A stretch of DNA of 64,000 bases, taken from positions 96,166 to 160,165 of the forward strand of contig CADCBB010000006.1 of the NCBI GenBank assembly GCA_902799555.1. The letters are read 5' to 3'. The notes beneath the pieces are model-generated. The model worked only from the letters and a program-made list of their open reading frames with translations. It ran no database searches and was not told the DNA's origin. The stretch is from an uncultured Bacteroidales bacterium. GTDB lineage: Bacteria > Bacteroidota > Bacteroidia > Bacteroidales > Paludibacteraceae. The translations under genes and the position numbers were made by a program. This document shows positions 14,674 to 34,673 of this stretch, in pieces; position 1 is the stretch's first letter, and the number at the start of each line of letters is the position of its first letter.

Positions 14674-14698
14674 CATATATACAACGATTTAAACACAC

Positions 14699-14777: not shown

Positions 14778-14842
14778 CGAGTCCTTCATTCTCCGGCCCA
14801 CCGCTCCCTTTTCAGGCTAATTAGATGATTTTTCTTAAAATA

Positions 14843-14874
14843 TTTGCATATCTGCAAAAAAAGCAGTAATTTTG
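14843..14874 (+). promoter_or_regulatory. mtaB promoter
   Basis: TTTG at 14843-14846, a 20-nt spacer, TAATTTTG at 14867-14874. The -33 box lies in a dyad TTTGCATATCTGCAAA and belongs to the end of the repeated element. The ATG follows 9 nt after the -7 box, giving a very short leader. Confidence 0.85.
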
Positions 14875-14883
14875 CAGGCGATT

Positions 14884-16155: not shown

Positions 16156-16984
16156 GCAAACATTCTAACTCATAGACCGGACAGGTTTCTAACAATGCCG
16201 CTATCGACTCATAGATAGCATCCATCGATTCGGGTAAGATCTTGAGTCCGCTCACCGAAGCGAGAATATACGGATACGCTTGCGTCATACGCAGGCGTGT
16301 TATTTTATTCTCAGGCGCTTGGGCGAGTTGTACGAGTGCACCGACGGCGGCGCTCTCGTTCTTATAACACGGTGTCTTACCGCTCCAAGGCGTACCATAG
16401 ACCCGCACGGAGCCATCGGCGAATATCCGTACTGCCGGGTTGTCATCATTGAGCAGCCATGCATCGTCGAAGGCTTGCAGCCATTGACGGGAATGCGTAC
16501 TCTTGCCGGTACCCGAATGACCGAGGAACATATAACCTACTCCGTTCCGTACCGTGACCGACGAATGGAAAAGCAGCGTTTTCATCGCGACCGTACGGAA
16601 GGCATAGACCAGCATAGCGGCGTTATCGACCGCAAAACGGAAATAGTTCGGATCGGTATAGACCTGCACTTCGCTCCAATTGGCGCTGCATTGCATCTTG
16701 CTCACCAGTTCGCCCTCTTTGGTCACCGACACGCCTAAGAGCCATTCGCCTTGGTCATTCTTAGACATCTCGATACGCGGCATATCGTCATCCGAGGTGT
16801 CGGTATAGACGTGCGTCCAGGCTTGGTTTTCCGGCATGGGGTGTTGGTGCACATGAATTATAAACACGTGACTTTCGCCGATTTGATCGGTGAGAAAGGG
16901 TGTATAATTTGACAGCAAGTCAAAAAGTTGCTCTTCAGCTTCGATGGCAAACACGTGGTCGCCGACGAGATAATGATTTATCAT
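16109..16984 (-). CDS. HprK/PEPCK-fold ATP-binding protein (HPr kinase-like)
   Basis: 291 aa. A Walker A (FLGHSGTGKSTHSRQWL, near residue 155) and the downstream WLLNDDNPAVRI and VYGTPWSGKTPCYKN match the serine-kinase HprK C-terminal domain. The N-terminal 130 residues are beta-rich and unassigned. No HPr or PTS gene is nearby, so a role in carbon catabolite control is not supported. Proteins of this fold also occur in peptide-modification or PqqD-type contexts, but none are seen here. It follows addB by 31 nt and may be the last gene of that operon. Its 3' end overlaps mtaB on the opposite strand. Confidence 0.75.
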   Translation of the reverse strand: MINHYLVGDHVFAIEAEEQLFDLLSNYTPFLTDQIGESHVFIIHVHQHPMPENQAWTHVYTDTSDDDMPRIEMSKNDQGEWLLGVSVTKEGELVSKMQCSANWSEVQVYTDPNYFRFAVDNAAMLVYAFRTVAMKTLLFHSSVTVRNGVGYMFLGHSGTGKSTHSRQWLQAFDDAWLLNDDNPAVRIFADGSVRVYGTPWSGKTPCYKNESAAVGALVQLAQAPENKITRLRMTQAYPYILASVSGLKILPESMDAIYESIAALLETCPVYELECLPNVEAAQLCAQTCSL

Positions 16985-17015
16985 AATATTTACGATTTAT
17001 TTACGATTGAATGAT

Positions 17016-19766: not shown

Positions 19767-19808
19767 TCTTTAATTCCTTCACTCTTTCATTCTTTAACTC
19801 CTTACCTC
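19761..19808. repeat. Short tandem repeat island, 6 x 8 bp, spanning addA stop to addB start
   Basis: TTTCATTC, TTTAATTC, CTTCACTC, TTTCATTC, TTTAACTC, CTTACCTC. The array supplies the addA stop codon, the whole 27-bp spacer and the addB start codon. A related octamer array is at 32265-32304. Confidence 0.9.
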
Positions 19809-22763
19809 CACTAATTTATTCTCTTTGGCAAACCACAGGTATCCGCGAACGGGACTATACCCCATCCTGCGTAAAGCTTGCTTGTATTCACTCACTTGCG
19901 TGATATAATGCTCATTCCAATTGCCAAACTTATAATCGAGCACGACGGCTTCATTCGTCAAGGGATTGACCATGACGCGGTCCGGCCGCAGTTCGCGTTC
20001 ATCGATAAAAATCGCCTCCTCCAGACGTAGTTCAAAGGGCGCGGTGAACCATTCCCGCATCTCAGGAATGCCTTCCCAAGCTTTAGAGATCAAGGTTCGT
20101 ATCTCTTCCCGCTGCGCTTTATCGCGTATCTCGCCGCGGGTCTCGAATTGGTCTAAGACCTGATCCAACTCCTCGGCCTTGCGGATGTTCGCAAAGATCT
20201 CATGGCATAGCGTACCTTCCTCCATCCGCGCCACACGCCGATAGGCCTCTTCCCCGTTCTCCGTATAGAGCGCGCCCTCTTGCGATTGCACGAAACGCAC
20301 CTGATCGCTATTGGCCCAGAGTTCGGCGGATTCGATTGTTGATTGTTGATTGTTGATTGTTGATTTAACCACCGGCGTACCGGCTTCGTATTCCTCGCCG
20401 AAACAATCCATGAGGTATTTGCCCACATGATTGCATGCCCCGCGTTTGCCGTCCTTATTGACCGAATAAGCGGTATAGACGAAGAGGTTATCCTCCGCGC
20501 GTGTGAGCGCCACATAGAGCATGTTGAGATTATCGATCCGCATGTTGGTCAGCTCATCGGCATAGGCAGCGCTATAATCGGACTCCGCCATCTCAGCCCC
20601 AAAGGGTACCGGCACAAAATCGCCGGTTTCATCGACCTTTTTCGACACCTCACACCATACTTTGGGTTTATGTCGTCCATCCTCCCGCTCCCACAACGCA
20701 AACGGCACAAACAAGGTTTGCGATTGTAAGCCCTTGCTGGCATGAATGGTCATGATCTGAATGGCATTGGAGGAGGTGACGGGAATAGGCTTGGCATGCA
20801 AGGTCTCATCCCAATAGGCGATAAACTGCTCCATATCACTGCCGTACGCGCCCACATACTCGCGTGTGCGGTCCAATAAGGCGTTGACGTAGGCGGTCTC
20901 CGTACCGGTATAACGGCCCTCAGCATCGGTCAGCAGGATACGTACCAGCTCGCATATCGCTTCATAGAGCGGTGTCTTATCGGTCAAAGCGGCATCAATT
21001 TGCTCGATGACATCGGGAGAATCCAGCGTTTGAAGGATGAAATGCTTGGCGATATCGTCGCCGTGCACCCGATAACGCAAGGCGGCGATGATGCGTTGCA
21101 CATCGGTGGAGGCCTCCAGCATAAAACTATCGGCACTCACGATCGGCAGGTCAGTCATCTCGCATAGCATAGCCGCTTCTTTCTTCTCCCGAACGAGGAT
21201 CATAATGTCCGATGGATTCGTGCCTTTTTGCAGCAATTTGTCGATCTGCTCGAACATCCGCTGCGCCAAGTCTTCTTTCTTGGCATTGGCGATCGCCTCA
21301 AAATGCACATATCCGCCGGCCTTCTTATCGGCCTGATAGAACTGAGCGATACACTCGGGTTGATAGCCTTCGCTGTAGATACGCGCCGTCAGTTCATCGC
21401 CATGCTGCACGACATGATCAAAGAGGGTCAAATTGAACCGTACGACCTCTTCGCTGCTTCGGAAATTACGGATAAGCGGCATCACTTGGTCACTTTTCAG
21501 CTCGTCCATGATATGCCAATTGCCGTTTCGCCAACGATAGATCGATTGCTTGATATCGCCTACGATGAGTAAGGTATTTCCGGCACTCGCCAGGACGTCG
21601 CGCAACAGTTGCTCGATCACGGACCATTGCAGTTGACTCGTATCCTGGAACTCATCGATCAGCACATGATGGAAGCGGATGCCGGCTTTCTCTAAGATAA
21701 AATCGGCATCGCCGGTATGGAGCGCCTTGGTCAAGGTACTGGCCGTACGCGCCAGAAGAGCACAGTTCGCTTCCGCGAGATTACGTTGGATGAGGGCCTG
21801 CAAAGAGGACATGAGCTCCATATCCCTGCTGAAACGGATCGTCAGTTGAAGCGTGTTGTAGCGCGGACGTATCTGATCCGCCAATGCCGAAGCACGCGCC
21901 ATCTCATCTGCATTGCAGTATTTGTCTGCCACGCCGCGAAAACGGTCCTTAGCCGAAATCTTATCCGGCGCCTCTACCGATCGTTTGAGCCGATCGTACG
22001 CTGCCTTAGTATACCGGTTATACGCCTCAGGTTGACAAGTACGTAGGATATTCTTCAGTTCGGCTAACTGCTCATCGTTCGTCCACTGTTGTTCGATCGC
22101 TTCGCGCCTACGGGCAATCGCTTGGGCATCAAAGAGGATCTTCCCGTCCGCATCGAGCATCTGCACCGATTCGTTGTATAACTCATAAGCCAACTCACAC
22201 AAGCTCTGCCGCACATCCCAATGGCTCTCCTGATCCAACTTCAGCAACATATAATCCTCGAGTATCGCCCGGTCCGCCTCGGTCAGTTCGGTAGCTAACA
22301 ACTGCTCCACCGCCTCTTGGATCACCTGCTTCACGTCCAGTTCGACATGCAAGCCTGCGTCCATATGCAAGATTCCTGCCAAACCGCCTAAGAGCGTCTG
22401 CAGGAAGGAGTCGATCGTCTGCACTTGGACGTTATCGTAGTCCAGCAACATCTTATGGAAACAAGTCTCAGCCCGTTGTCGGAGCAAGGCCTCATCAGCC
22501 TGTCCGTCACGGATCATGAATCGACGGGCATAGCTTAGAAATGCCTGTTCCTTCCCCTGCGAGATCGCATAGAGGTAAGCCAAGATGCGCTCACTCATCT
22601 CAGCCGTCGCTTTGTTGGTAAACGTGATCGCCAAAATCGAACGATAATCCTCGCCCGATAACAACAACCCTACGTAATAGGCAGCCAAGGTATAGGTCTT
22701 ACCTGTACCGGCGGAAGCCTTACAAAGCGTCACAGGATGATGTATGTCCACCAATGAATCCAT
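19794..22763 (-). CDS. addA: AddA-like UvrD-family helicase-nuclease subunit
   Basis: 989 aa. Superfamily 1 helicase motifs are in order: Walker A ([15 protein letters not shown]) at residue 14, [11 protein letters not shown] (Ia), [14 protein letters not shown] (II), [14 protein letters not shown] (III), [12 protein letters not shown] (V) and [14 protein letters not shown] (VI). A RecB-type nuclease domain closes the protein ([17 protein letters not shown]). It unwinds and resects double-strand ends together with AddB. The transcript is nearly leaderless: the -7 box ends 9 nt before the ATG. Confidence 0.92.
20334..20367. repeat. Short tandem repeat island, 4 perfect GATTGTT heptamers plus one partial, in addA
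   Basis: GATTGTT four times then GATTTAA. On the minus strand it encodes [13 protein letters not shown], a polar insert between helicase motif VI and the nuclease domain. Confidence 0.92.
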
Positions 22764-22771
22764 TTTCGGTG

Positions 22772-22803
22772 CAAAGTTACGGAAAAAAATTCAATTAAAC
22801 AAA
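22772..22803 (-). promoter_or_regulatory. addA promoter
   Basis: Minus strand TTTG (22803-22800), 20 nt, TAACTTTG (22779-22772). The expected transcription start is within a few bases of the ATG at 22763. Confidence 0.8.
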
Positions 22804-22839
22804 TAGAACCTATATTTTTTTCAAAAAATCCACTCAAAA

Positions 22840-22871
22840 TTTGCATATATGCAATTTTTGTTGTACCTTTG
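22840..22871 (+). promoter_or_regulatory. glyA promoter with TTTGCATATATGCAA dyad at -33
   Basis: TTTG at 22840-22843, a 20-nt spacer, TACCTTTG at 22864-22871. The -33 box opens a TTGCATATATGCAA palindrome. The approximately 37-bp block from here to GCAGC is almost identical to the fbp promoter at 34642-34673. Confidence 0.88.
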
Positions 22872-22895
22872 CAGCACCAATTAAATCATATAAAT

Positions 22896-24176
22896 ATGAA
22901 TCGAGACACAGAGATTTTTGACATCATCCGCCGCGAGCGGGAGCGTCAGACCAAGGGCATTGAGTTGATTGCCAGTGAGAATTTCGTGAGCGACCAGGTG
23001 ATGGAGGCCATGGGCAGTGTGCTGACCAATAAGTACGCAGAGGGTTATCCCGGTCATCGTTATTACGGAGGCTGCGAAGTAGTGGATATTGCGGAGAATA
23101 TTGCCCGGGAGCGTCTCAAAAAGTTGTATGATGCCGAATATGTGAATGTACAGCCGCACTCGGGCGCACAGGCGAACATGGCCGTTTTCATGGCATGTCT
23201 CAAGGCCGGCGATACATTCATGGGTCTTAATCTCAGTCATGGCGGACACCTTAGTCACGGTTCGGCCGTTAACTTCAGCGGTTTGATGTTCAACGCCATC
23301 GGTTATGATCTGGATGAGGCGACCGGTCGCGTGGACTATGACGATCTGGAGCGCAAGGCACGGGAGCATAAGCCGAAGTTGATCATCGCAGGTGCGAGTG
23401 CGTACAGCCGTGAATGGGATTACGCGCGTATCCGCCGCGTGGCCGATGAGATAGGTGCGATCTTCATGGTAGATATGGCCCATCCGGCAGGACTCATTGC
23501 AGCAGGCCTTTTGGACAACCCGCTCAAGTACGCGCATATCGTTACTTCGACCACGCATAAGACCCTCCGCGGTCCGCGTGGAGGCGTTATCCTGATGGGT
23601 AAAGATTTTGATAATCCTTGGGGTAAAACCACGCCGAAGGGTGAGATCAAGAAGATGAGCGCCCTACTCGACTCTGCGGTCTTCCCGGGTACGCAAGGCG
23701 GCCCGTTGGAGCACGTGATCGCAGCCAAAGCCGTTGCTTTCGGCGAGGCGCTTACCGAAGATTTCAAGGTATACCAGCAGCAAGTAAAGAAGAACGCGGC
23801 TGTGATGGCGCAAGCGTTTATGGATAAGGGCTACAAGGTGATCTCCGGCGGTACGGATAACCACTCTATGCTGATTGACCTGCGCACCAAATATCCGGAT
23901 TTGACCGGTAAGGTAGCCGAACAAGCGTTGGTAAGCGCCGACATCACGACGAACAAGAATATGGTGCCGTTCGACAGCCGAAGTGCTTTTCAAACCTCTG
24001 GTTTGCGTTTCGGAACGCCGGCTATTACGACCCGTGGTCTGAAGGAAGACAAGATGCCGTGGATCGTGGAACTCATCGACCGCGTGCTGATCGATCCGAC
24101 CAGCGAAGCGGTCATTGCTGCCGTACGCGCCGAGGTGAACAAAGAGATGAACCAACATCCGCTCTTTGCATGGTAA
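22896..24176 (+). CDS. glyA: Serine hydroxymethyltransferase
   Basis: 426 aa from the ATG at 22896 ([18 protein letters not shown]). The upstream TTG frame starts inside the promoter. Signatures are [47 protein letters not shown], the PLP-lysine segment [15 protein letters not shown], and [23 protein letters not shown]. It interconverts serine and glycine with tetrahydrofolate in the cytoplasm. It is a single-gene unit ended by a strong terminator. Its TAA stop is the first part of a GTGAAAA repeat array. Confidence 0.98.
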
Positions 24177-24206
24177 AGTGAAAAGTGAAAAGTGAAAAGT
24201 GAAAGT
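24175..24206. repeat. Short tandem repeat island, 4 x AAAGTGA, after glyA stop
   Basis: Four perfect AAAGTGA heptamers begin within the TAA stop codon of glyA and run up to the terminator stem. The island is almost the exact reverse complement of the TTTCACT island at 13215-13242. Confidence 0.92.
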
Positions 24207-24240
24207 AAAAAAAAGTGTCCTACGCAGGACACTTTTTTGT
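24207..24240. terminator. Bidirectional intrinsic terminator between glyA and araC-type gene
   Basis: An A-run, AAAGTGTCCT, loop ACGC, AGGACACTTT, then a T-run. The A-run on one side and T-run on the other make it functional for glyA (plus) and the convergent regulator (minus). Confidence 0.92.
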
Positions 24241-24251
24241 TATTCTTCAGC

Positions 24252-25127
24252 CTATTCTTTCGCTTTCTTATTCTTACGGAACTTATTGGGCGAAACACCC
24301 AAGTGTTTCTTGGTGTACTGGCAGAAGAAGCTGGCATTGGGGAACTCCATCAAACGGGCTATCTCGCGGATCGGCATGGTCGTATCCTCCAGCAGATGCT
24401 TCAACTCCGAAACCGTCACGTCTGCGATCCATTCGCCAGCCGACTTATCGCTCATCTCCTTGCATATCTCCGACAAGTACTTCGGCGTGATACCCATCTG
24501 CTTGGCGAACCACTGCACCTCACGCTCATGCGGATGTTGCTGCAGCAGGCGGATGAACTCATAGAAGATATAATCGCTATGGTTCACCGATTGACGACGC
24601 GGTGCGTTGGCCGGAAGACTATCGGCTAACTTATCCAAATAATTGAGCATCTCCATGGTGGCTGCACGGGCCACATACATCATGATCTGCTTGCGGAACG
24701 GCGTCATATTATCCTCCAACTGCAACTTCAGCATTTCGAAATACGCATTATAGAATTCGATGCTCTTCTTATTAATCGGGAAGATCGGATTCTCCTTCAC
24801 ATATTCCTGCTTCGACCACCAATTCGGCTCTACGCGCATATGGTCGTACATGATCTGCGAAAAGATCTCGGCATCTACCGTCACCTGCTTGAACGCAAAA
24901 TCAGGCGACATCTCGTACGGGCCCAACTTGTAATTATGATCCGGAATACGAACGAAAAGATCGTTCTCATGGATACGAATCATCGCGTCATGGTAATACA
25001 CATCGATGTACCCGGCGGTGCAAAGCAACACGGTCATCGTATTCGATGCTGTGGAACGGTTCTCACGGCACTGACGGAAACCTTCAATTTCGTCCGTCAA
25101 AAAGATAGAGTCAGTAAATAAAATCAT
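24252..25127 (-). CDS. AraC-family transcriptional regulator
   Basis: 291 aa. The C-terminal 100 residues form a double helix-turn-helix of the AraC/XylS type (MGITPKYLSEICKEMSDKSA; MPIREIARLMEFPNASFFCQ; KHLGVSPNKFRK). The N-terminal 180 residues are a cupin-like effector region without a recognised ligand motif. It is divergent from the DUF4837-pnuC pair, with a back-to-back promoter region of 134 bp. It may control that pair or itself, which is inference from position only. Confidence 0.9.
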   Translation of the reverse strand: MILFTDSIFLTDEIEGFRQCRENRSTASNTMTVLLCTAGYIDVYYHDAMIRIHENDLFVRIPDHNYKLGPYEMSPDFAFKQVTVDAEIFSQIMYDHMRVEPNWWSKQEYVKENPIFPINKKSIEFYNAYFEMLKLQLEDNMTPFRKQIMMYVARAATMEMLNYLDKLADSLPANAPRRQSVNHSDYIFYEFIRLLQQHPHEREVQWFAKQMGITPKYLSEICKEMSDKSAGEWIADVTVSELKHLLEDTTMPIREIARLMEFPNASFFCQYTKKHLGVSPNKFRKNKKAKE

Positions 25128-25161
25128 ACTCTTGTTGGGTATTTTGGTATTAAATCTGCGG

Positions 25162-25193
25162 CAAAATTAATGAATTTTTCTTATATATGCAAA
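25162..25193 (-). promoter_or_regulatory. Promoter of the AraC-type regulator
   Basis: Minus strand TTTG (25193-25190), 20 nt, TAATTTTG (25169-25162). The -33 region reads TTTGCATATATAAG, close to the glyA and fbp dyads. Confidence 0.85.
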
Positions 25194-25210
25194 TTTTTTA
25201 GACGATTTTC

Positions 25211-25241
25211 TTGCAAAATTCATAAAAAAGGTGTAATTTTG
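25211..25241 (+). promoter_or_regulatory. Promoter of DUF4837-pnuC
   Basis: TTG at 25211-25213, 20 nt, TAATTTTG at 25234-25241; the ATG is at 25262. Confidence 0.82.
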
Positions 25242-25261
25242 TACGCAAAATCTATTGGAAC

Positions 25262-26260
25262 ATGAAAAAAATCTATTTTTTAGTGCTTTCCGCACTTACG
25301 CTGCTCAGTTGCAGCAATGATCGTTTGCTTACTTCGGCAACGGGTTCTATCTATGAGTGTCTGATTGTCAGCAATGCGGCTGTGAAGAATGCCGTGTGTG
25401 AGACGATGGGCGCCGATATGTACGGTCTGCCGCAGATGGAAGCGACATTCACCGTGACGCATGTGCCGACCGGTCAATTCGATGACCTATTCAAATCGAC
25501 CCGTAACATCCTGTTGGTCGATATCGACGAACATAAATACACGATGGTGAAGGCGAACCGGTCCCGCGATGTATGGTCCAAGCCGCAAGCGGTGATCCGT
25601 ATTCAGGCGCCGAGCGATGAAGCATTCCTCGATTATTGGCAGCAGAACGGCGACGTGATCCGGGAGTGGTTCGTTCGTGAGGAATTAGCCCGTCAACTCC
25701 GTTTCTATCGCGCGAATACGAATAAGGACGCGCGTGCGCGTCTGAACAAGCAAGGCTACGACCTCCTTATCCCGGAAGACTATATGCTCATCCTGGATAC
25801 CATGCTAAATGACGTACCTGTGCTCTGGTGCTGCAATAACAAAGGTCCGATGCGCAAGGATATTCTTGTCTATAGCTATCCCTACACCGCCCAGGAGCAG
25901 TTCAGCAACGAAGCCATCATCGCTATGCGTAATACCGTAGTGGGGCAACTCGTCTCAGCGCAAGTGCCTGGTAGTCATATGGGTACGGAATACAAACATT
26001 TCCCACCGGTAAGCCGTCAGGTGTCGGCGCTGCGCGATACCGTAGGCGGATTCTATGCGGTAGAGACACGCGGTTTATGGAAGATGCTGGACGGAGAAGC
26101 GATGGGCGGTCCGTTCGTTAGTCTGACCCGCCTAGACCAAGTGAACGGTCGTGTGGTGACGGCAGAGACTTTCCTCTATGCGCCGGGACAAAAGAAACGC
26201 AATGCTACGCGTCAATCGGAAGCGATCCTCTATTCGCTCCAAATGCCGAATGAAAGGTGA
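25262..26260 (+). CDS. DUF4837 family lipoprotein
   Basis: 332 aa. It has a lipoprotein signal peptide (MKKIYFLVLSALTLLSCSND; lipobox LLSC, Cys at 17). The mature region begins with SATGSIYECLIVSNA and continues with GLPQMEATFTVTHVP, matching DUF4837 envelope proteins of Bacteroidota. No catalytic motif is visible and the family has no established function. It is translationally coupled to the following pnuC-like gene through a GTGA overlap. Confidence 0.82.
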   Translation: MKKIYFLVLSALTLLSCSNDRLLTSATGSIYECLIVSNAAVKNAVCETMGADMYGLPQMEATFTVTHVPTGQFDDLFKSTRNILLVDIDEHKYTMVKANRSRDVWSKPQAVIRIQAPSDEAFLDYWQQNGDVIREWFVREELARQLRFYRANTNKDARARLNKQGYDLLIPEDYMLILDTMLNDVPVLWCCNNKGPMRKDILVYSYPYTAQEQFSNEAIIAMRNTVVGQLVSAQVPGSHMGTEYKHFPPVSRQVSALRDTVGGFYAVETRGLWKMLDGEAMGGPFVSLTRLDQVNGRVVTAETFLYAPGQKKRNATRQSEAILYSLQMPNER

Positions 26261-26829
26261 GTTGGACGCAGGATAGCATATTATCACTAATCAGTTGTTG
26301 TCTGGGTATCTGTTCCGTCGTGCTAGCTTCGCGGCGGAACATCCTCACTTTCGCCTTCGGTTTTGCCCAGGTGCTGACCTACACCTATCTCTGTTGGACC
26401 CAACGGTTCTACGCGGAAATCGCTCTCAATGCTTACTATTTCGGCACGATGATCTACGGCGTTTATGTCTGGCGTCAGCGCTTAAAAGAGGAAAGCGGCA
26501 AGATGAAAGTGGAGCCACGCAGCCTTAGACCTATCGTCATAGGCCTGATCGTCGTCACGACCCTCATCGGTTCATGGCTTGTCGGATGGGCATTGGCGAC
26601 GTGGACGGACGATACCCAGCCTTATTTGGACGCCTATACGACAGTACCTGCACTCGTAGCGCAGGTACTGATGATTCTCGTCTATCGCGAGCATTGGTTT
26701 CTTTGGCTCGCGGTGGATATCCTGTGCGTCATCCTTTGGGTGCGCGCAGGGGATTATTTTATGGTGACGCAGTATGCGATTTGGTGCGCTAACTGCGTGT
26801 ACGGCATTATCTCTTGGAGGAAGGCTTGA
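26257..26829 (+). CDS. pnuC: PnuC-family nicotinamide riboside/vitamin transporter
   Basis: 190 aa from a GTG start overlapping the previous stop by 4 nt. It has seven or so membrane segments with the PnuC signatures WLAVDILCVILWV, YFMVTQYAIWCANCVYGI and NILTFAFGFAQVLTYTYL. It transports nicotinamide riboside, or thiamine or riboflavin precursors in related types. No TPP or FMN riboswitch is present upstream, so vitamin specificity is open. The 3' end overlaps the convergent Ig-like lipoprotein gene by 23 nt. Confidence 0.85.
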   Translation: MSWTQDSILSLISCCLGICSVVLASRRNILTFAFGFAQVLTYTYLCWTQRFYAEIALNAYYFGTMIYGVYVWRQRLKEESGKMKVEPRSLRPIVIGLIVVTTLIGSWLVGWALATWTDDTQPYLDAYTTVPALVAQVLMILVYREHWFLWLAVDILCVILWVRAGDYFMVTQYAIWCANCVYGIISWRKA

Positions 26830-28603
26830 TGATCAGTTCGGACGGCTTGGCCTTGGTCTGCTCTTGCGCCTGATAATCCCATTCTTCTTCGAAATCCCAA
26901 TTGGATTTGGTCTGTAATTTGCCCGGGAAATAATAGATGGGCTCGGGTTGCCGTTTACTGCTCCACTCACCCGTTGTCCATCGTCCGTCCTCGTTCTCGT
27001 CGATATACATGCGGAAATAGTACGTATCGGGCTTGAGGTACTCAAAGAATGCACCTTCTTTCGTGGCTGGTAACTCACGCAACACTTCATCCTTGCTATT
27101 CAGCACCTGAATACGGGCCTTTTCTACCATCGGATTGAGTTTTATGCGAATCGTCGAGTAGTCCTGCAGGCTCTTCACCTGCATGGCATAGGTCTGTTTT
27201 AGCTGCGTGATGCCGTACACATCCTGCAAGGCACCGCTATCGAGATGCAACTCATACTTTCCTTCGGGTTTGAACTTGGCGTAGAAAAGCAGTTGGTGCG
27301 AGAGCGAATCAAACGGCGCCATGGTGAACGGCATGGGTTTAAGGATCGAATCCACGCGTTCGAACAAGTGTATCGAGTCCGGTTCGATAGCCGTCAGAGG
27401 CGTTGCGCAACGCAGACGCAAAGTGTCATAAATCTCAAAGCCTGTTCGTGCATTGCAACTCAATTCCAAACGTCGGTTGCGGTTCTTTCTATCCAAGGCT
27501 TCCTTTGCTTTGGAAGACAAGCGAGGAGCGCGCCAAATGGCACGAATCGTATCCGAAGCCCACTCTAACTGAAAAATACTATCCGTTCGGCGATAACGAA
27601 TCGCAAAAAACAATGAATCTTGCGCTATCGACATGCTATCCAACAACCACATCGTGAGCGTGTCTCGGCGGGCCGAATACTGGATATGATAGTTCAGGCT
27701 ATCGGTCAATGGATGCAGTTCCGGCAGGCTATCCGGCTTCGAAGAGAAGAGGATCTGTATCCGGTGTTGATCGGGACGTAAGGTGCGCTGCAGGTATAGC
27801 TTCTGCTGCTCTTCTTTGAATAAGAACAAGTTCTTATCGATCCGCTGCGCCACGATGCTGCTGTCCTGTGCAAGCGAATCCACTGCGAGCGTATCCGGCG
27901 CTATGGTATCCGGTTCGGGCGCTTTCACCTCTATCACCTCATCCGCAAAGGCCAGCGCTTCTCCGGGCGTCAAACGGAAATCCCTACTCGCTTCCTCAAC
28001 CGCAAACAAGCGATATTGGCCCGGGTGTATATTGCCGATTCGGAAATACCCCGCAGTGTCCGTTCGGGCGATACGTAAGAAAGGCTTGGTCGTGAACGCA
28101 GAGTCCTCCAGATCGCTATGGATTCCGACGATGATACCCGAAGCAGGATTCAGCGTAGAAGCATCAAACACCTTACCGCAGTAGTCCAGCGTATCGATCT
28201 CCGGACCAGTAGCGAAATAAAAATGATATCCCCTAAGCGGCACACGCTCCCGATAATCGCACACCGCTTCGCCGAAATCCAAGGTATAGGTCGTATTGGC
28301 TTGTAAGGAGTCCTGAAAACGAATCAGCAATCGCTTACCGCGCGCCTTTACCTCGGGCGCGTTCTGCTGCGGAGGAGACATCAATAAGTTCTCACTCACA
28401 TTATCCAACTCCAGATACTCGTTAAACGTCACCTCAATACGGTCACCGTTCCAGTTGAGCGCCCCCATCTCCGGTTCACTCTTTAGCGGAATAGGCGGCT
28501 CCGTGTCTTTCGGACCACCCTGCGGACCTATCCCTCGGTTCGCACAACTCGCCCACAATAAGACGAATAAGAAAATACTATAATGTTTTAAGTTCATACC
28601 CAT
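26807..28603 (-). CDS. Ig-like (Big_5/SbsA) domain surface lipoprotein
   Basis: 598 aa from the ATG at 28603 (an alternative is the ATG at 28597). The lipoprotein signal is LKHYSIFLFVLLWASCANR. The mature N-terminus has the conserved GPQGGPKDTEPP block and then a bacterial Ig-like domain (ITVTFNEY-type: RIEVTFNEYLELDNVSENLL, TYTLDFGEAVCDY). This is the widely conserved Bacteroidota Ig-like lipoprotein. A Ser/Asp/Ala-rich spacer lies near residues 220-245, and a second sandwich follows. It is the last gene of its operon and overlaps the deacetylase gene upstream by 26 nt. Role unknown, probably envelope. Confidence 0.82.
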   Translation of the reverse strand: MGMNLKHYSIFLFVLLWASCANRGIGPQGGPKDTEPPIPLKSEPEMGALNWNGDRIEVTFNEYLELDNVSENLLMSPPQQNAPEVKARGKRLLIRFQDSLQANTTYTLDFGEAVCDYRERVPLRGYHFYFATGPEIDTLDYCGKVFDASTLNPASGIIVGIHSDLEDSAFTTKPFLRIARTDTAGYFRIGNIHPGQYRLFAVEEASRDFRLTPGEALAFADEVIEVKAPEPDTIAPDTLAVDSLAQDSSIVAQRIDKNLFLFKEEQQKLYLQRTLRPDQHRIQILFSSKPDSLPELHPLTDSLNYHIQYSARRDTLTMWLLDSMSIAQDSLFFAIRYRRTDSIFQLEWASDTIRAIWRAPRLSSKAKEALDRKNRNRRLELSCNARTGFEIYDTLRLRCATPLTAIEPDSIHLFERVDSILKPMPFTMAPFDSLSHQLLFYAKFKPEGKYELHLDSGALQDVYGITQLKQTYAMQVKSLQDYSTIRIKLNPMVEKARIQVLNSKDEVLRELPATKEGAFFEYLKPDTYYFRMYIDENEDGRWTTGEWSSKRQPEPIYYFPGKLQTKSNWDFEEEWDYQAQEQTKAKPSELIIKPSSKR

Positions 28604-29168
28604 TTGCCAACAACCATTCTATTGCAAGCGGTAGAACCGCTAACATGCGCTCATTCGATTTGATGGAGTCATGAAAATTGATAATGCTGCCCGATCGCGT
28701 CTGGCGTTGGATCTGCTTTAACATCGCCTCCGGCGTACGACGCGGATTATAATCGCGCGTCAGTACATCCCAGAGGTAGATCTCATAGCCTAATCGCTTC
28801 ACCGCCATCCGTTGCCAAAGCCATGTGCGACCATAAGGAGGCCGGAACAACTTGGTCTCTTTCGGAAACTTCTGTACATTGGCGATATAGTCGGCAGTAC
28901 TGTATTTCCATCCTTTGACATGGTTATAGGTGTGGTTTCCGATTGCGTGACCGGCTTTAATCACTTGCTCAAACACATCGGGGTGCTTGTCGATATTTTC
29001 CCCTACCATGAAGAAGGTCGCCTTCACGCCGTACCTATCCAAGATCGCCAACACTTTCGGCGTCACCTCCGGTATCGGTCCGTCATCAAAGGTCAGATAC
29101 ACCGCCTTACCCACGCGGCATTTGCCGCATGGATAAAGACGTTGCAATATGGATTTAAATAATCTCAT
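28578..29168 (-). CDS. Polysaccharide deacetylase (NodB/CE4 domain)
   Basis: 196 aa, essentially one NodB homology domain. The motifs are YLTFDDGPIPEVT (motif 1, catalytic Asp), GNHTYNH (motif 2, HxxxH metal ligands), RPPYGR (motif 3) and INFHDS (motif 5 His). It lacks a clear signal peptide (MRLFKSILQRLYPCGKC), so its location is uncertain. Substrates may be peptidoglycan or another N-acetylated glycan. It starts about 100 bp after glk, past two hairpins, and overlaps the Ig-like lipoprotein gene. Confidence 0.9.
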   Translation of the reverse strand: MRLFKSILQRLYPCGKCRVGKAVYLTFDDGPIPEVTPKVLAILDRYGVKATFFMVGENIDKHPDVFEQVIKAGHAIGNHTYNHVKGWKYSTADYIANVQKFPKETKLFRPPYGRTWLWQRMAVKRLGYEIYLWDVLTRDYNPRRTPEAMLKQIQRQTRSGSIINFHDSIKSNERMLAVLPLAIEWLLANGYELKTL

Positions 29169-29177
29169 TTCTGGGGT

Positions 29178-29201
29178 CCCCGAAAATTTTAATTTTTGGG
29201 G
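29178..29201. other. AT-centred hairpin CCCCnAAAA/TTTTnGGGG
   Basis: An inverted repeat with 9-bp arms (one mismatch) and a 6-nt loop lies just upstream of the deacetylase start. It is adjacent to a second, larger inverted repeat at 29210-29263. Confidence 0.6.
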
Positions 29202-29209
29202 AGAGCGAG

Positions 29210-29263
29210 CCTGTCCGAGTACTTACTACTAAAATGAATTTTAGTACATGTACGAGGACAAGG
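29210..29263 (-). terminator. Large imperfect inverted repeat downstream of glk
   Basis: The core is TACTAAAAT-GA-ATTTTAGTA, flanked by partly pairing arms CCTGTCCGAGTAC and GTACGAGGACAAGG. It lies 8 nt after the glk stop. It may act as a terminator, an RNA stabiliser, or a dispersed palindromic repeat. There is no clean T-tract, so terminator is only the best guess. Confidence 0.45.
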
Positions 29264-29270
29264 AGCGCGA

Positions 29271-30227
29271 CTACCATGCTAACGAAGACGCACCTAAGAT
29301 AGCGGCGTCGCTGTCCTTAAGCACCGAAATAGATACAGGGATCTTACCCTTCCAGATAGGCATCAGGTTCGCATCGAGCGCCTCTCGAATCGGATCCATG
29401 ATCCAGTGACCCGACTTGGTCAGACCGCCAAAGAGGATGATAGCCTCCGGGCTGGAGAAATGCACATAGTCCGCCAATTTCTCACCCAGCAGACGACCGG
29501 TATAATCGAAGATCTCTTTGGCTACGAGATCACCCTTCTCCGCTGCATCGAACACATCTTTGGAGGTGATATGGTCGATGTCTGCCACTTGGCGCAGGAG
29601 TGTCGGTTGTGTCGTTGAGGTCACGATCTCCTTCGCTGTACGAGCCACACCCGTTGCCGAAGCATAAGCCTCGATACATCCCCTCTGACCGCATCCGCAG
29701 AGACGTCCGTTGCCCGAGTGATCGATCTTGCAATGGCCTAACTCGCCTGCAAAACCGTCATGGCCGTACAGCAGTTTGCCGTCAATCACGATACCCGATC
29801 CCACGCCGGTACCGAGGGTGATGACGATAAAGTTCTTCATGCCGCGTGCAGAACCGTAGATCATCTCGCCTTGTGCCGCAGCGTTGGCATCGTTGGTAAC
29901 AGTACACTTGATACCCATACGCTCGCTGATGAGTTTAGCCAGAGGCACTACACCCTTCCACGGCAGGTTAGGCGCATACTCGATGCAGCCCGAATAGAAA
30001 TTGCCGTTCGGCGCACCGCAGCCGATGCCAACGACATCACTGAGCGCGATTCCTTCGTCCTCTACCAGACGTTTCAGACCGGCGCAGAGCACATCACAAT
30101 ACTCGTCTATCTCCGGATACTGCTGGGTAGGAATAGAGTTGCTACGCAAAACTTGACCTTCGTCGTTAACCAAACCAAACTTGGTGCCTGTACCACCTAA
30201 GTCGATACCTAAAGCATACTTTTTCAT
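29271..30227 (-). CDS. glk: ROK-family glucokinase
   Basis: 318 aa. The ATP-binding phosphate-1 motif is ALGIDLGGTGTKFGLV. The ROK signature is present: VTNDANAAAQGE, LGTGVGSGIVIDGKLL, and the zinc site CKIDHSGNGRLCGCGQRGCIE (His plus CxCGxxGC). It phosphorylates glucose or a related sugar with ATP in the cytoplasm. It follows the DPP-IV gene by 25 nt in the same operon. Confidence 0.93.
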   Translation of the reverse strand: MKKYALGIDLGGTGTKFGLVNDEGQVLRSNSIPTQQYPEIDEYCDVLCAGLKRLVEDEGIALSDVVGIGCGAPNGNFYSGCIEYAPNLPWKGVVPLAKLISERMGIKCTVTNDANAAAQGEMIYGSARGMKNFIVITLGTGVGSGIVIDGKLLYGHDGFAGELGHCKIDHSGNGRLCGCGQRGCIEAYASATGVARTAKEIVTSTTQPTLLRQVADIDHITSKDVFDAAEKGDLVAKEIFDYTGRLLGEKLADYVHFSSPEAIILFGGLTKSGHWIMDPIREALDANLMPIWKGKIPVSISVLKDSDAAILGASSLAW

Positions 30228-30252
30228 AACTATTAAATTTAAAATTTTTGAA

Positions 30253-32199
30253 TCATAAATTTGTGTTCAAGAACCGCAAGATTTTCTCGTGCATGTGTTT
30301 GGCGTTATTGCCCTGACGCAGATGATGGTTGTCGTCGGGGTATAACTGCATCTCAAACTGCTTATCCGCCTCCACTAACGCATTGATATACTGCATCGTA
30401 TGCTGCACATGGACGTTATCGTCTCCCGTACCGTGAATGATCAGCACATTACCCGTTAGATCGGTCGCTTTGTTCAGCAGCGAAGCCTCTTCATAGCCCT
30501 TCGGGTTAACCTGCGGACGACGCATGTACCGCTCCGTATAAGCGGAGTCGTAGAGTTTCCAATCGGTCACAGGGGCAATCGCCACACCGCACTTAAACGG
30601 ATGGTTTTTCTGACTCATTGTGTAAAGCGTCTCGTAGCCACCGTACGACCATCCCATGATCGCCATATGCTCACCGTCGATGTCATCGCGCTTCGCCATC
30701 TCGTTAGCGGCCATAATCAGGTCCTCCGCTTCTTTCTGACCCAAACTCATATACGTCTCATTGCGCCATGCGCGCCCTTTACAATCACCACCCCGCGTAT
30801 CGACGATCAGCACCGCATAGCCAAGCTCTACCAAGGCGTACTCAAAACGCTTGCGCCATCTATTCAGCACCCGTTGACTCGCCGGTCCGCTATAATGCAT
30901 GAGAATTAGGGGTGAGGGGTTACCGGTTACCGGTGAGCGGAGGAGCATGGCTTCGAGACCATTGATCTGCATCATCTCCGGTTCGGGTAAGCCGTTCGCT
31001 TGCCATGCAGCTTTCACTTCAGCATTGTCTTCCAGCAATTCGAGTTTATTCTTTGAATAAAGATAGTATGTATTTGGCGTTTCAAACGATTGATAGCAGA
31101 ACACGGCTTTGGTAGCCTCGCTATTGAATCGTGCCGACCACATGCCTTCGTCTTTGGTGAGTTGGGATATCTCCCCTTTCTTGATATTCAGCGCATAAAT
31201 ATGTCTTGTACTCGGCTGCGGAGCTGCTTGATAATAAAGCGTTTGCGTCTTTTCGTTCACGCCATAGACAGCCGTTACATCAATGCCTTCCGGTGTTAGT
31301 ACTTTCTGCTCTACTCCCTGCGAAGAGTATAAGTATACTTGCCTCCAGCCATTCTTCTCACTCAGTACTATAAATTTTCCGTCGCTTAACCATTGCCATT
31401 CGTCAAACAGGCTATAGTCAACGAAATATTTCTTGCTCTCTTCGGCATAAAGCGGATGGCAGACGGTCGATTTGGCATTGCAGGACAGCACCTCCATCTT
31501 CGTCTGATCCCTATTCACGCGCAGAACCAATAAGGTGTTCTCGTCCGTCCAGCGCAAACGAGGGATATAACCATCCCCACTCTCGACTTGCAAGCGTTGA
31601 ATGCCTTTTGTTGCGACATCATAGACGCACACACTCGCCTTCGCGTTTTCACATCCCGCTTTGGGATAACGCAGGCTCTCTGCTTTCGGATATTGGGTAT
31701 CGGAATAAACATCCCATGAGAAGGTAGGCACTTCGGTCTCGTCGAGCCGCACAAAGGCCAGCATCTTCGAGTCCGGACTCCAAGCGAACAGAGCGGTAGT
31801 GGCGAACTCTTCTTCATACAGCCAGTCGGCGATACCGTTGATGACCTCCGTATTTTCGTCTTTCGTCACCGCCACTTCGGTACCGAAATCGAGTTTATGG
31901 ATATAGAGGTTATTGTCTTTAGCAAACGCTACATAGCGTCCGTTGGGCGACATGACAGCATCCCGCACTTTCCCTTCGCCCAATTGCTTGCGCGTATGGC
32001 GCATGGTGTCGATAATGTAGTAATCCGCCACACTCGAATGACGGAATATAGCCTCTTGATTCTCACTCTCCAAACGATAGCGACCGGTCGTTTGTACGCC
32101 TAAAATCGAATCCTGCTCCGCTTCCGACAGCGTATTTGCTTTATACTCACCGGACAAGATGCCGGTCAATACACTCAATATTATCAATAATCCTTTCAT
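30253..32199 (-). CDS. Dipeptidyl-peptidase IV family serine peptidase (S9B)
   Basis: 648 aa. The N-terminal beta-propeller (DPPIV_N) carries IADWLYEEEF, which includes the double-Glu motif that anchors the substrate N-terminus. The C-terminal alpha/beta hydrolase has the nucleophile elbow MGWSYGGYETL, VLIIHGTGDDNVH (Asp) and YPDDNHHLR (His). It is predicted to be exported, with a short signal (MKGLLIILSVLTGILSG), and to cleave X-Pro or X-Ala dipeptides. It is about 70-80 residues shorter than classical bacterial DPP4. Its ATG overlaps the preceding stop (ATGA). A heptamer repeat island lies in the hydrolase domain. Confidence 0.92.
   Translation of the reverse strand: MKGLLIILSVLTGILSGEYKANTLSEAEQDSILGVQTTGRYRLESENQEAIFRHSSVADYYIIDTMRHTRKQLGEGKVRDAVMSPNGRYVAFAKDNNLYIHKLDFGTEVAVTKDENTEVINGIADWLYEEEFATTALFAWSPDSKMLAFVRLDETEVPTFSWDVYSDTQYPKAESLRYPKAGCENAKASVCVYDVATKGIQRLQVESGDGYIPRLRWTDENTLLVLRVNRDQTKMEVLSCNAKSTVCHPLYAEESKKYFVDYSLFDEWQWLSDGKFIVLSEKNGWRQVYLYSSQGVEQKVLTPEGIDVTAVYGVNEKTQTLYYQAAPQPSTRHIYALNIKKGEISQLTKDEGMWSARFNSEATKAVFCYQSFETPNTYYLYSKNKLELLEDNAEVKAAWQANGLPEPEMMQINGLEAMLLRSPVTGNPSPLILMHYSGPASQRVLNRWRKRFEYALVELGYAVLIVDTRGGDCKGRAWRNETYMSLGQKEAEDLIMAANEMAKRDDIDGEHMAIMGWSYGGYETLYTMSQKNHPFKCGVAIAPVTDWKLYDSAYTERYMRRPQVNPKGYEEASLLNKATDLTGNVLIIHGTGDDNVHVQHTMQYINALVEADKQFEMQLYPDDNHHLRQGNNAKHMHEKILRFLNTNL
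30908..30942. repeat. Short tandem repeat island, 5 x 7 bp, in DPP-IV gene
   Basis: AGGGGTG, AGGGGTT, ACCGGTT, ACCGGTG, AGCGGAG. It encodes LLRSPVTGNPSP in the DPP-IV hydrolase. Confidence 0.75.
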
Positions 32200-33440
32200 T
32201 TCAATCTAAGATATTTCTTTCCATTATGAATAACCAACTCATAGTTCCCAAACGGAATGGTCCATTCATTCGTTAACTCTTTCATTCCTTCATTCGTAAA
32301 CTCGACATCCATTCCATACTCCGGATGGCAGGTATAGATATTCGGTTCTTCCCATTCCGCATAGAGAAGCGCTGTCTGTGCCTGCGAAATATCGTTTACC
32401 AACATTAGTTTGGTGACGAAAGTTTCATTATCGGAAGCTAATTTATAGGGCTTCAACATATAGATATCCGCACCCACAGTTGTATAGAAAGCGGTATACT
32501 GACCATTATGATAGATATGCCATTGACTCGCCACATTCGCCAAAGCGGTGCCGTTATAGCCGATATAGGACTCGCCATACACATGCGATAGACGAATGGT
32601 CGCCAAGCCGTTTTGGATACTCACCTCATACCATTGCATCGTATTGGTCACATCGATGACTTCCGTCCCTGCAACACCTTTGGCCACAGCGCCACTCATC
32701 GCCGTACCGCTGTGCATGTCGGCGTATATATATAGCCCATCCTGCAATTCGGTGACGATCCGATCCTCCAACGGAGTCTGATAGCGGTAAACAGCCCAAA
32801 GAATCACATCCCGCTTGGGTTTGTACTCGTCGGTATAGATGTACGTCTCGATATTTTCCGTCTCATAATACTCTACTTCACTCCAGCCCACAAACACCCA
32901 ATTGGCGGAATCCGGCAAGGAAGGAAGAACCACCTTCTCGCCATGCAGCGTCTCTACAAGCTCCGTACCGTTCATCAGCGTCACATCATAGGCCGTTGAA
33001 GTCTGCTGTCTCCACGTGATCTCGTATTTCTCAATATGCAACGAGTTAGTTGTGCCGATAACTTGTATCATCAGTTCGTTCAACGTCCGCTCCCCACTCC
33101 ATCCTATCGCATGAGAATTTGTATTATCATACACGCCGAACCAGCCCTTATATGTACCGTTCGCAGAGTAAAACTGCATCCCATCGGCCTCCATTGTGAG
33201 AATGCCGGCACCACTATTCTTATTCGATTTCAAATACACATTCACCTTCTCAATCACGATCCCGTCTAATCCGCTTACGGTCAAGGTAGCTGTGTCTTTA
33301 TCCGTCACATTGCCTTTCGTGCCGGTATTCTGATAGGTCGCGCTCATGCTATATGGCCATGAACCGCTAGCCTTTACAGTCGATTTGGTCTCCACTGTAA
33401 ACGTCATCATCGCACTCAGTATGAATAGCAGTATTTTCAT
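32196..33440 (-). CDS. Secreted hypothetical protein
   Basis: 414 aa with a signal peptide (MKILLFILSAMMTFTVETKS). Residues 20-145 are a beta-rich, Ser/Thr/Gly-rich region with no recognised family. Later repeats such as PSLPDSANWVFVGWSEVEY and PKRDVILWAVYRYQ resemble the InlB-B/Listeria-Bacteroides repeat module seen in surface proteins. The protein ends in FGNYELVIHNGKKYLRLK, a shortened relative of the tail in three other exported proteins here. It is the first gene of the operon with DPP-IV and glk. It has an octamer repeat island encoding TNEGMKELTNEW. Confidence 0.65.
   Translation of the reverse strand: MKILLFILSAMMTFTVETKSTVKASGSWPYSMSATYQNTGTKGNVTDKDTATLTVSGLDGIVIEKVNVYLKSNKNSGAGILTMEADGMQFYSANGTYKGWFGVYDNTNSHAIGWSGERTLNELMIQVIGTTNSLHIEKYEITWRQQTSTAYDVTLMNGTELVETLHGEKVVLPSLPDSANWVFVGWSEVEYYETENIETYIYTDEYKPKRDVILWAVYRYQTPLEDRIVTELQDGLYIYADMHSGTAMSGAVAKGVAGTEVIDVTNTMQWYEVSIQNGLATIRLSHVYGESYIGYNGTALANVASQWHIYHNGQYTAFYTTVGADIYMLKPYKLASDNETFVTKLMLVNDISQAQTALLYAEWEEPNIYTCHPEYGMDVEFTNEGMKELTNEWTIPFGNYELVIHNGKKYLRLK
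32265..32304. repeat. Short tandem repeat island, 5 x 8 bp
   Basis: TTCATTCG, TTAACTCT, TTCATTCC, TTCATTCG, TAAACTCG. The units are close to those at 19761-19808. Confidence 0.8.
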
Positions 33441-33459
33441 TTAGCACGCAATTTGCGTG

Positions 33460-33490
33460 CAAAATTACAAAAAAAAAATCATATACGCAA
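33460..33490 (-). promoter_or_regulatory. Promoter of the 32196-33440 gene, with GCACGCAA dyad at the start site
   Basis: Minus strand TTG (33490-33488), 20 nt, TAATTTTG (33467-33460). A GCACGCAA/TTTGCGTGC dyad (33444-33460) covers the probable transcription start and could be an operator or a 5' RNA hairpin. Confidence 0.8.
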
Positions 33491-33663
33491 GCCCGCAAGC
33501 GATTTTTTCTGATTTTTCTAAAATGTCTTCGTCTGCTAGGGTGGCTCGGGCATAGGCAGATTAGCCCCGCGCTGGATGCGCCATCGGTAACTACTCTCTC
33601 CGCATGGCAACCCACCTTCGTCCATTTCCAGAGATTTTATCCTGGATCATTCATCGTGCATTT

Positions 33664-33683
33664 TGGCGACATTTTTGTCGCCA
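33664..33683. other. Perfect 8-bp hairpin TGGCGACA/TGTCGCCA
   Basis: TGGCGACA, TTTT, TGTCGCCA lies in the otherwise featureless 33491-33694 interval, where I see no gene. There is no T-tract after it on either strand. Function unknown. Confidence 0.5.
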
Positions 33684-33694
33684 TTATACCCCTT

Positions 33695-33730
33695 CGTCAT
33701 CTCGTCATCCCGTCATAACGTCATGACGTT
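33695..33730. repeat. Short tandem repeat island, 4.5 x 8 bp CGTCATnn
   Basis: CGTCATCT, CGTCATCC, CGTCATAA, CGTCATGA, CGTT. It is the same unit as the gyrA leader island at 11842-11873. It contains the perfect palindrome AACGTCATGACGTT. Confidence 0.88.
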
Positions 33731-33794
33731 TTTATAAAAAAATCAATTTTCTATACATTTTTTGTCCAAAAACTTAACTTTTTCTGTTTCAAAA

Positions 33795-33826
33795 TTTGCA
33801 TGTTCCAAAATATTTTTGTATCTTTG
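33795..33826 (+). promoter_or_regulatory. Promoter of element copy B
   Basis: TTTG at 33795-33798, 20 nt, TATCTTTG at 33819-33826. The same TATCTTTG is kept in copy A at 14544-14551. Confidence 0.82.
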
Positions 33827-33906
33827 CACCCGAATTAAAAATCCCCGTTCTCATATTTTCGAGCCCCAAAAGGGTCCAAATAAGAGGCGGAAACAAGGCT
33901 TGTTCT

Positions 33907-33948
33907 ATGCATCCTAGACCATACCTATTTTTAATAGCACATAAATAA
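33907..33948 (+). CDS. Putative 13-codon leader peptide in element copy B
   Basis: ATG to TAA, giving MHPRPYLFLIAHK. It ends 25 nt before the main ORF start. The partner in copy A is MRPRPYILLQTYK: same length and same PRPY core. Confidence 0.4.
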   Translation: MHPRPYLFLIAHK

Positions 33949-33973
33949 CATATATACAACGATTTAAACACAC

Positions 33974-34576
33974 ATGTCACGGCACTTAAAAACACGCATT
34001 CAGATGGGTTTAAGCAGCATTATTGATCATTACGTCACGCTCTCGCCCAATTCCACGCCTCGCGCCCGAGGAGTGCGCTATTTTGTGCCTATAACCCTCT
34101 ACGAAGCCTACTGGGGCGCTATGAACTCCGTCAAAGCAGGTCGCCGTTACAAAAAGCACATCGTTGTCCGTCGAATGCCCTACGCCCACGGCCTTCTCCA
34201 ACTCTATACCTACCATTTTCCAAGGACCTGGTCTGCAGCCTGCGTAGCAAATCGCGAACTCATCAAGCAAGCCCAGCGCCAAGCCCACGCCTTGGAGCAT
34301 GCTCATACCCGCGAAGCCCTTGAATGGAGAGTCCGCTTCTTTAACCATTATTTCTCTGTCGTCAAAGGCGGCGCTACTCCCGAACCCGGCCTCAAACCCT
34401 ACTCCCGTTTCTACCAATATACCTACGTCTCCATCTATCGCCAGCTCCAAGCCGCCCGCGACAAAGCCCTCCATCCCGATACTGATGTCTCTTTTGATTC
34501 TATAGACGTTCGTCCCTTACAGGCGGATACTATCCGCTTCCGCTGCCCGCCGCACCTTCCGCTCGCCCTCCCTTGA
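33974..34576 (+). CDS. Unrecognised basic 200-aa protein of the repeated element
   Basis: ATG at 33974 (MSRHLKTRIQMGLSSIIDHY). The protein is rich in Arg, His, Tyr and Ala. It has no signal peptide or membrane segment and a Pro-rich C-terminus. Visible blocks are GVRYFVPITLYEAYWGAMNSV, GRRYKKHIVVRRMPY, a helical ELIKQAQRQAHALEHAHT, and ALEWRVRFFNHYFSVVKGG. The charge suggests nucleic acid binding, but no helix-turn-helix or nuclease motif is seen. Codons are strongly C-ending compared with neighbours. I do not recognise the family. The copy A version is dead, so at least this locus still encodes a full product. Confidence 0.6.
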   Translation: MSRHLKTRIQMGLSSIIDHYVTLSPNSTPRARGVRYFVPITLYEAYWGAMNSVKAGRRYKKHIVVRRMPYAHGLLQLYTYHFPRTWSAACVANRELIKQAQRQAHALEHAHTREALEWRVRFFNHYFSVVKGGATPEPGLKPYSRFYQYTYVSIYRQLQAARDKALHPDTDVSFDSIDVRPLQADTIRFRCPPHLPLALP

Positions 34577-34641
34577 CGAATCCTTCATCCTCCGGCCCTC
34601 CGCTCCCTTTTCCGGCTAATTAGATGATTTTTCTTAAAATA

Positions 34642-34673
34642 TTTGCATATATGCAATTTTTGTTGTACCTTTG
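34642..34673 (+). promoter_or_regulatory. fbp promoter with TTTGCATATATGCAA dyad at -33
   Basis: TTTG at 34642-34645, 20 nt, TACCTTTG at 34666-34673. It is near-identical to the glyA promoter. The -33 box falls in the last bases of element copy B. Confidence 0.88.

Follow-up and report, generated by a model that had tools for sequence, protein, structure and literature searches.

A multicopy family of small basic proteins in one genus of Paludibacteraceae whose genes carry a phased leader module, a candidate site of self-recognition

Two loci within the 64,000-nucleotide stretch of an uncultured Bacteroidales draft genome analysed here (the window), designated copies A and B, carry a repeated unit of promoter, conserved leader and gene for a small basic protein, and we propose, as a reading with about an even chance of being right, that this protein represents a new DNA-binding family which recognises a site in its own leader and probably autoregulates. 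Each copy would pair a gene for the DNA-binding protein with the DNA target of that protein, formed in the 5' leader by a core, TCCTAGAC(N)5, and a degenerate, mostly 11-bp-phased array. A beta-hairpin (residues ~61-81) would read the variable bases of the core, and the phased array would line up further subunits along a single face of the helix. Binding would most likely repress transcription of the gene itself, with further targets elsewhere possible, and we infer that copies spread and are reshuffled by homologous exchange between one another, perhaps at their very similar flanking promoters, without a transposase of their own.

The features of both copies are collected in Table 1. Alignment of the two loci gave 157 identical bases of 167 in the common leader (94%), and the 3' end was also common to both, as the initial annotation had described; its account of copy A, with a stop at codon 5 and most of the CDS missing, was likewise borne out by the sequence. 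Copy B had been taken as intact, but a frameshift affects its C-terminus, the original frame being lost after residue ~188. Four sibling copies (L002, L003, L004, L005) have a common C-terminal tail, RRTF..S..DESFI...FSG, whose coding sequence lies out of frame in B (34548-34619) and in A (14749-14820), with 64 of 72 positions of this remnant identical between the two (89%). Since the tail of the four siblings was found out of frame in B, the shared 3' end of A and B consists of C-terminal coding plus ~20 nt, after which the promoter of the next gene begins.

Table 1. Features of copies A and B, with positions in the window.
Feature	Position	Strand	Description
Copy B, initial outline	33807-34650		Outline borne out by sequence
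Copy A, initial outline	14531-14851		Outline borne out by sequence
Copy B promoter	33795-33826	+	TTTG ... TATCTTTG, from sequence; Bacteroidales-type
Leader module, array side	33860-33911	+	Degenerate 11-bp periodicity, weak in copy B; from relatives and copy B
Core site	33912-33924	+	TCCTAGACCATAC, class CA..C; paired with residues H62/R67/Q76
uORF	33907-33948	+	13 codons; not conserved among relatives
Leader module, AT-rich part	33925-33973	+	CTAGAC at -58 to -60 of ATG in forward-type relatives
Copy B CDS	33974-34576	+	200 aa; residues 1-170 (core domain) intact, frameshift in the C-terminal tail
Residues 61-81	34154-34216	+	Predicted beta-hairpin and loop; holds residues 62, 67-69 and 76, which co-vary with core bases
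Ancestral C-terminal coding	34548-34619	+	Now out of frame; the initially described shared 3' end
3' junction and promoter of next gene (fbp)	34639-34673	+	Homology to G357 fbp locus begins here
Copy A leader	14531-14698	+	Core TCCTAGAC at 14637-14644
Copy A CDS remnant	14699-14820	+	First codons with a stop at codon 5; C-terminal coding begins at 14749
Block between copies	14841-33490	.	Contiguous in G355 and G357, with a different left neighbour there; A and B at its two ends in the window

The claim of an own promoter stood for copy B, except that the -33 box (33795-33798) lies outside the start originally given at 33807. A similar promoter is present in copy A and in sibling L003, and the promoter of sibling L002 is partly deleted: this copy, at C3:26581 of the same genome, retains a full-length CDS, yet has lost the -7 part of its promoter, so that the copies of this genome are damaged in differing ways. 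Copy B is flanked by a 414-aa ORF and fbp, and copy A by a 439-aa ORF and mtaB. Terminal inverted repeats had been reported as absent, which held for copy A, where no inverted pair was found in 14000-15400, and failed for copy B, which has an imperfect 27-nt inverted pair at its ends (78%) coinciding with two quasi-palindromic promoters. Unlike an insertion sequence or MITE, the unit thus has as its sole inverted pair one made by two promoters, and no transposase family was matched in searches with the protein family, in agreement with the initial annotation.

The draft genome contains eight protein matches: six copies are of the long type, including two truncated at contig ends, and the others are a remnant and a short paralogue (L007, 35%). 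The leader is matched at ten places, seven of them substantial. The repeated unit is not the product of one segmental duplication. In a kinship sample, 19 of 61 genomes gave a match, all within the same genus, and 13 of 37 members of the genus matched at E<1e-20. A scan of GTDB species genomes yielded 134 relatives from 139 candidates, of which 80, from 39 assemblies (by record prefix), were kept. All but one of these 80 are titled Bacteroidales or Paludibacteraceae; the exception, L155, is titled Solobacterium, which is likely a case of mis-binning, since its protein and leader adjoin a Paludibacteraceae copy in both trees. A profile of the short members matched 2 of 295 genomes drawn from the order, both of this genus. 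The small basic protein thus appears so far to be confined to one group of gut and rumen bacteria. No relatives were found in phages, plasmids or viral contigs, and carriage by a phage or plasmid was rejected for this reason.

Searches of Pfam, NCBIfam, PHROGs, PADLOC and the PDB gave no family for the protein, Pfam gave no match over 65 members at E<=0.01, and no paper on the family was found in the literature, judged by title or abstract opening. Matches to DUF1986 (E 0.18), PDB entry 2k4b (E 0.6), CudC (1 of 65 members, E 0.008) and phrog_35306 (1 of 65, E 0.0097) were taken as chance. The initial view that the protein belongs to no recognised family therefore stands, and the locus is a genuine, previously unrecognised repeated unit with its own promoter, conserved leader and basic protein. 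The protein is under purifying selection (median dN/dS 0.14 over 19 pairs hand-chosen among near relatives), and its core is basic (median pI 10.0, 75 loci). An AlphaFold2 model built from 65 sequences (pLDDT 90, pTM 0.64) has a short N-terminal helix and strands, a beta-hairpin formed by residues 61-67 and 75-81, and three helices after it. Foldseek of this model against the PDB returned nothing at E<=0.001, and an earlier 19-sequence model had no match in the PDB or a viral fold library at the same cutoff; the fold-library searches thus supply no match backing a DNA-binding fold at that threshold.

By sequence comparison, the unit conserved upstream of the gene is a DNA module, in which the array is followed by the core, TCCTAGAC plus 5 nt, and ~60 nt to the ATG. 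CTAGAC or its reverse was found within 250 nt upstream in 71 of the 75 loci with a readable start; among the four others, L101 and L135 have 36 nt and 1 nt of upstream sequence only, and in L139 and L158 upstream sequence is present and the motif absent. In the forward type (51 loci by orientation label), CTAGAC lies at -58 to -60 from the ATG, and the leader is reversed in 19 of 70 labelled loci. Mean lag-11 identity upstream of the core was 0.379 over 50 forward leaders, compared with 0.22-0.30 at other lags from 5 to 25, and 0.332 at lag 22. A lag-11 score of at least 18 was reached by 28 of 70 leaders versus 9 of 170 control upstreams, and lag 10 was likewise enriched (17/70 versus 7/170), with related loci in these counts not independent. 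Strong 11-bp arrays were present in 6 of 9 short members versus 8 of 207 controls, a pattern noticed before it was tested and a count that omits two weak or broken short-type matches in G281 for which the start was not found. The array is weak in copy B and its siblings in the same genome (16-18 of 33; 14 in L006), the best lag-11 score of copy B being 18/33 with 200 nt upstream scanned.

The module in both orientations was compared using an HMM of forward leaders in which the core was masked. At E<1e-3 this HMM matched 12 of the 19 reverse loci, in every case on the minus strand, and none of 245 controls (best E=1). Explaining the reverse label takes 11 changes on the protein tree, 10 of them forced by well-supported branches, versus 5 changes, 1 of them forced, on the leader-module tree, which has few columns and an unsettled bootstrap. 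The histories of leaders and coding sequences therefore appear to differ, and leaders seem to have been exchanged between gene copies. Loci L167 and L172 have the same promoter, a near-identical gene start and opposite leaders; both orientations thus exist, but reverse and forward modules differ. Because the modules of these two loci are too divergent for a recent flip, and the module tree lacks several forced origins, leader exchange was preferred over a fresh physical inversion. In two reverse-leader loci (L131 and L133), repeated gene-start fragments resembling ATGCCAAAGCACTTGAAA lie upstream of the ATG, as if start regions had been duplicated during leader exchange.

Comparison of cores and proteins distinguished two main classes, in which H62/R67/P69/Q76 occur with TCCTAGAC[CA]AT[AG]C, and R62/P67/R69/E76 with TCCTAGACTTT[AG]T; hybrids with CT also occur. 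A coupling scan (86 loci, effective n 36, 100 leader positions by all well-filled protein columns), run after the pairing had been noticed, placed among its top 14 couplings only core positions +1, +2 and +5 with residues 76, 67, 62, 68, 51 and 69 (maximum z 12.8); of these residues, only 51 falls outside the hairpin and its loop. Of 86 loci, 83 follow the rule that R67 is paired with A at core +2 and any other residue there with T; L121, L130 and L161 deviate. When residues 62, 67-69 and 76 were left out of tree building, four changes were placed at core +2, and 4 of 4 coincide with changes at residue 67 (0/5000 random placements). In a control over 163 columns, residue 67 ranked first for core +2 (p 0.0005, which is the floor of the test, 1/2001, and not significant after correction for 163 columns), followed by residues 30, 68, 31, 69 and 76, of which 30 and 31, in second and fourth place, are outside the hairpin. 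For core +1, the first rank fell to residue 133, also outside the hairpin, with 31 and 62 next. Within the limits of this tree-aware test, the conserved candidate operator in the leader co-varies with the protein encoded behind it. The case that the protein seems to read its core is good but not conclusive, because the events are few, columns outside the hairpin also score, and many columns were tested.

The same data bear on the possibility that this is an ordinary multicopy family and that something unrelated, such as a genus-wide factor binding TCCTAGAC, keeps its leader conserved, the co-variation reflecting shared ancestry. The main split between core classes and hairpin classes is one deep branch, 11-bp arrays and the motif are also found away from the gene, and the scores of columns outside the hairpin point the same way. 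Against this, co-changes recur on separate branches, as seen at core +2, the residues coupled in the all-column scan are mostly within one hairpin, and reverse leaders joined to R67 proteins of the H62 type keep the CA class (L107, L122, L152). We consider this explanation unlikely, while giving it roughly one part in five of our belief.

The boundaries of the copies were examined by comparison with related genomes. The copies of this genome and of its close relative G355 lie between their own promoter and the promoter of the next gene, both near one consensus. A box resembling TTTGCATAT occurs within 250 nt after the stop in 24 of 74 loci, and TTTGCA lies no more than 300 nt upstream in 67 of 75; the low first count weakens the view of promoter-to-promoter spread, which holds for the copies aligned here. 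A copy at fbp is present in this genome and in G355, and in none of 29 other genus loci examined, nor in G357, at whose fbp locus no family copy was matched (survey of 30 loci from 44 genomes with fbp, G357 being apparently the same assembly as G015). At mtaB, 3 of 30 loci show something, namely copy A itself, a remnant in G018 that includes a core, and a weak match of the short type. Homology with the copy-free loci of relatives begins at 14841 and 34639. The left neighbour of the block between the copies in G355 and G357 is the region found at 55036-63552 of the window, and by this difference copies A and B mark rearrangement breakpoints. Synteny upstream of mtaB is generally low (by eye), so that the breakpoints need not have been caused by the copies. 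The flanks of relatives show shuffling as well: locus pairs sharing a flanking gene numbered 36 upstream and 34 downstream, with 6 in both lists, although only some of the loci have sequence on either side. No clean empty site with a target duplication was obtained at fbp and mtaB, where upstream synteny is too scrambled.

These junctions are relevant to a second alternative, which we rate as rather improbable, that the protein acts on DNA at the core, cutting or moving it as a recombinase, nuclease or transposase-like protein, with its site in the leader and with copies spreading by this action. The family is multicopy, patchy and site-bearing, with 16 exact occurrences of TCCTAGAC in the draft genome, 9 of them away from family copies; residues R66, R94, W118 and Y143 are invariant, and H105 and E108 nearly so; and both the position of copies on breakpoints and the gene-start fragments repeated in L131 and L133 would fit such an activity. 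However, no known catalytic family was matched, no target duplication was found (in the absence of a clean syntenic empty site), the junctions of A and B fall at promoters, and the swaps seem to involve whole modules, as opposed to exchange at the core.

Returning to self-recognition, a more far-reaching version, which we regard as speculative and less probable than its simpler form, would have a hitherto undescribed fold, in which a three-helix body bears a beta-hairpin that reads DNA, co-evolving base by base with its own leader site, with a phased module that works either way round and is passed as a cassette between copies of a genus-specific, self-recognising family that also seeds rearrangements. 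If self-recognition is true, a protein-DNA pairing would be readable directly from genomes, and the natural leader/protein pairs, which number in the dozens and show two main core classes and a few candidate specificity residues, would form a test set for specificity change in a new DNA-binding fold. It would also supply this orphan family, multicopy in rumen Bacteroidales, with a hypothesis of function and point to a way in which a gene can multiply without a transposase of its own.

The leader had been read initially as a functional RNA with a uORF in a mobile element, on the grounds that it is kept in the dead copy A. Its 94% identity, compared with 89% in the coding remnant and 85-87% at third codon positions among B, L002 and L003, indicates that the leader evolves slower than neutral, and this higher conservation than at synonymous sites would suit an RNA; the decay of copy A may, for its part, simply be recent. 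RNAalifold predicted 0 pairs on 31 forward leaders, Rfam gave no match over the window at gathering scores, and the module is also found reversed, in 19 of 70 labelled loci, by which a structured cis-regulatory RNA was rejected. The uORF has 13 codons with PRPY in both A and B, as noted initially, but is not conserved among relatives: in other assemblies, 3 of 51 loci with a forward leader have a uORF start just before the core, its stop is missing in siblings L002 and L003, and a leader-peptide attenuator was dropped on this count. A functional RNA leader is thus very improbable, and the conserved leader has the look of a DNA switch bound by a protein.

Known systems with comparable layouts were also considered. 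In ParR/parC partition, a direct-repeat array (10-20 bp) lies beside the operon, with a ribbon-helix-helix ParR, and actin-like ParM alongside. The present family resembles that of plasmid R1 (type II partition) in its small protein and 11-bp direct-repeat array beside the operon, about one repeat per helical turn; 11-bp phasing is enriched upstream, although degenerate in copy B. According to PMC9426499, ParR of plasmid R1 needs two 11-bp repeats. That the array serves as a centromere or origin, within a chromosomal nucleoprotein site of partition or iteron type adjoining the gene of a putative binder, has in our view only a slight chance of being correct: no ribbon-helix-helix family was matched and the model is a beta-hairpin with three helices, no ParM was found among the neighbours of the window copies, and several copies are scattered per genome on contigs with housekeeping genes, without a plasmid or phage match. 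Iteron-autoregulated plasmid Rep proteins have phased direct repeats upstream of their gene, as here, where the gene product likely binds them; unlike in those systems, no replicon was identified for the family, and neither a Rep family nor a plasmid was matched. Invertible promoters of Bacteroidales carry a regulatory segment in both orientations, which is likewise seen here, but the promoter lies outside the reversed module in the loci inspected, no recombinase was identified, and the reverse leaders look old and exchanged, not freshly flipped. REP/RAYT and MITE repeats are dispersed near small genes, a likeness limited by the absence of any HUH transposase family match and by a unit made of promoter, leader and gene, not of a hairpin.

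Phased arrays were also surveyed away from the family, and the notion that 11-bp arrays are unique to it was dropped, since gene-free loci of the genus have them too. Strong 11-bp tandem arrays without the gene were seen in L016, L027, L037, L040, L193, L216 and L237, with units such as GTAGGTTATTA or CCCATAGGATT. Period 11 was commoner than 9, 10, 12 and 13 in 5 of 6 locus samples; in the L093-L172 sample, strong period-10 arrays outnumbered those of period 11 (16 versus 4). Upstream of L142 and L146, period-10 arrays of CCTAGTCCGA-like units lie between promoter and core. In the genome of the window, 11-bp-phased arrays lie near a TCCTAGAC core at L087 (1450-1610), L092 (~1400) and L077 (~1285), with no family gene seen; the first is upstream of what we take to be a DUF1016-type nuclease-like gene, and the second near a presumed MNT-type nucleotidyltransferase. 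These arrays are possible further targets of the protein.

A core-like GTCTAGGATTACCACG is kept inside the variable linker of a TrmO-like CDS in two species (L295 and L296), a linker whose length varies greatly across the genus; a fresh insertion of the core into this gene (L090/L295) was rejected, the site being also present in the orthologue L296. Just upstream of copy B, at 33500-33770, the window contains a different dispersed repeat, CCGCATGG..CCCACCTTCGTC..TTTCCAGA...TCTGGA-like, with a hairpin, GGCGACATTTTTGTCGCC; its copy at C3:59k has GGTGAC/GTCACC, with pairing preserved, and the repeat looks like a REP-type element. Tandem arrays of 7 bp (TTTCACT, GATTGTT, AAAGTGA and others) are frequent, and were seen in the window at 13215, 18882, 20334, 24175, 35700 and 40408, among other positions.
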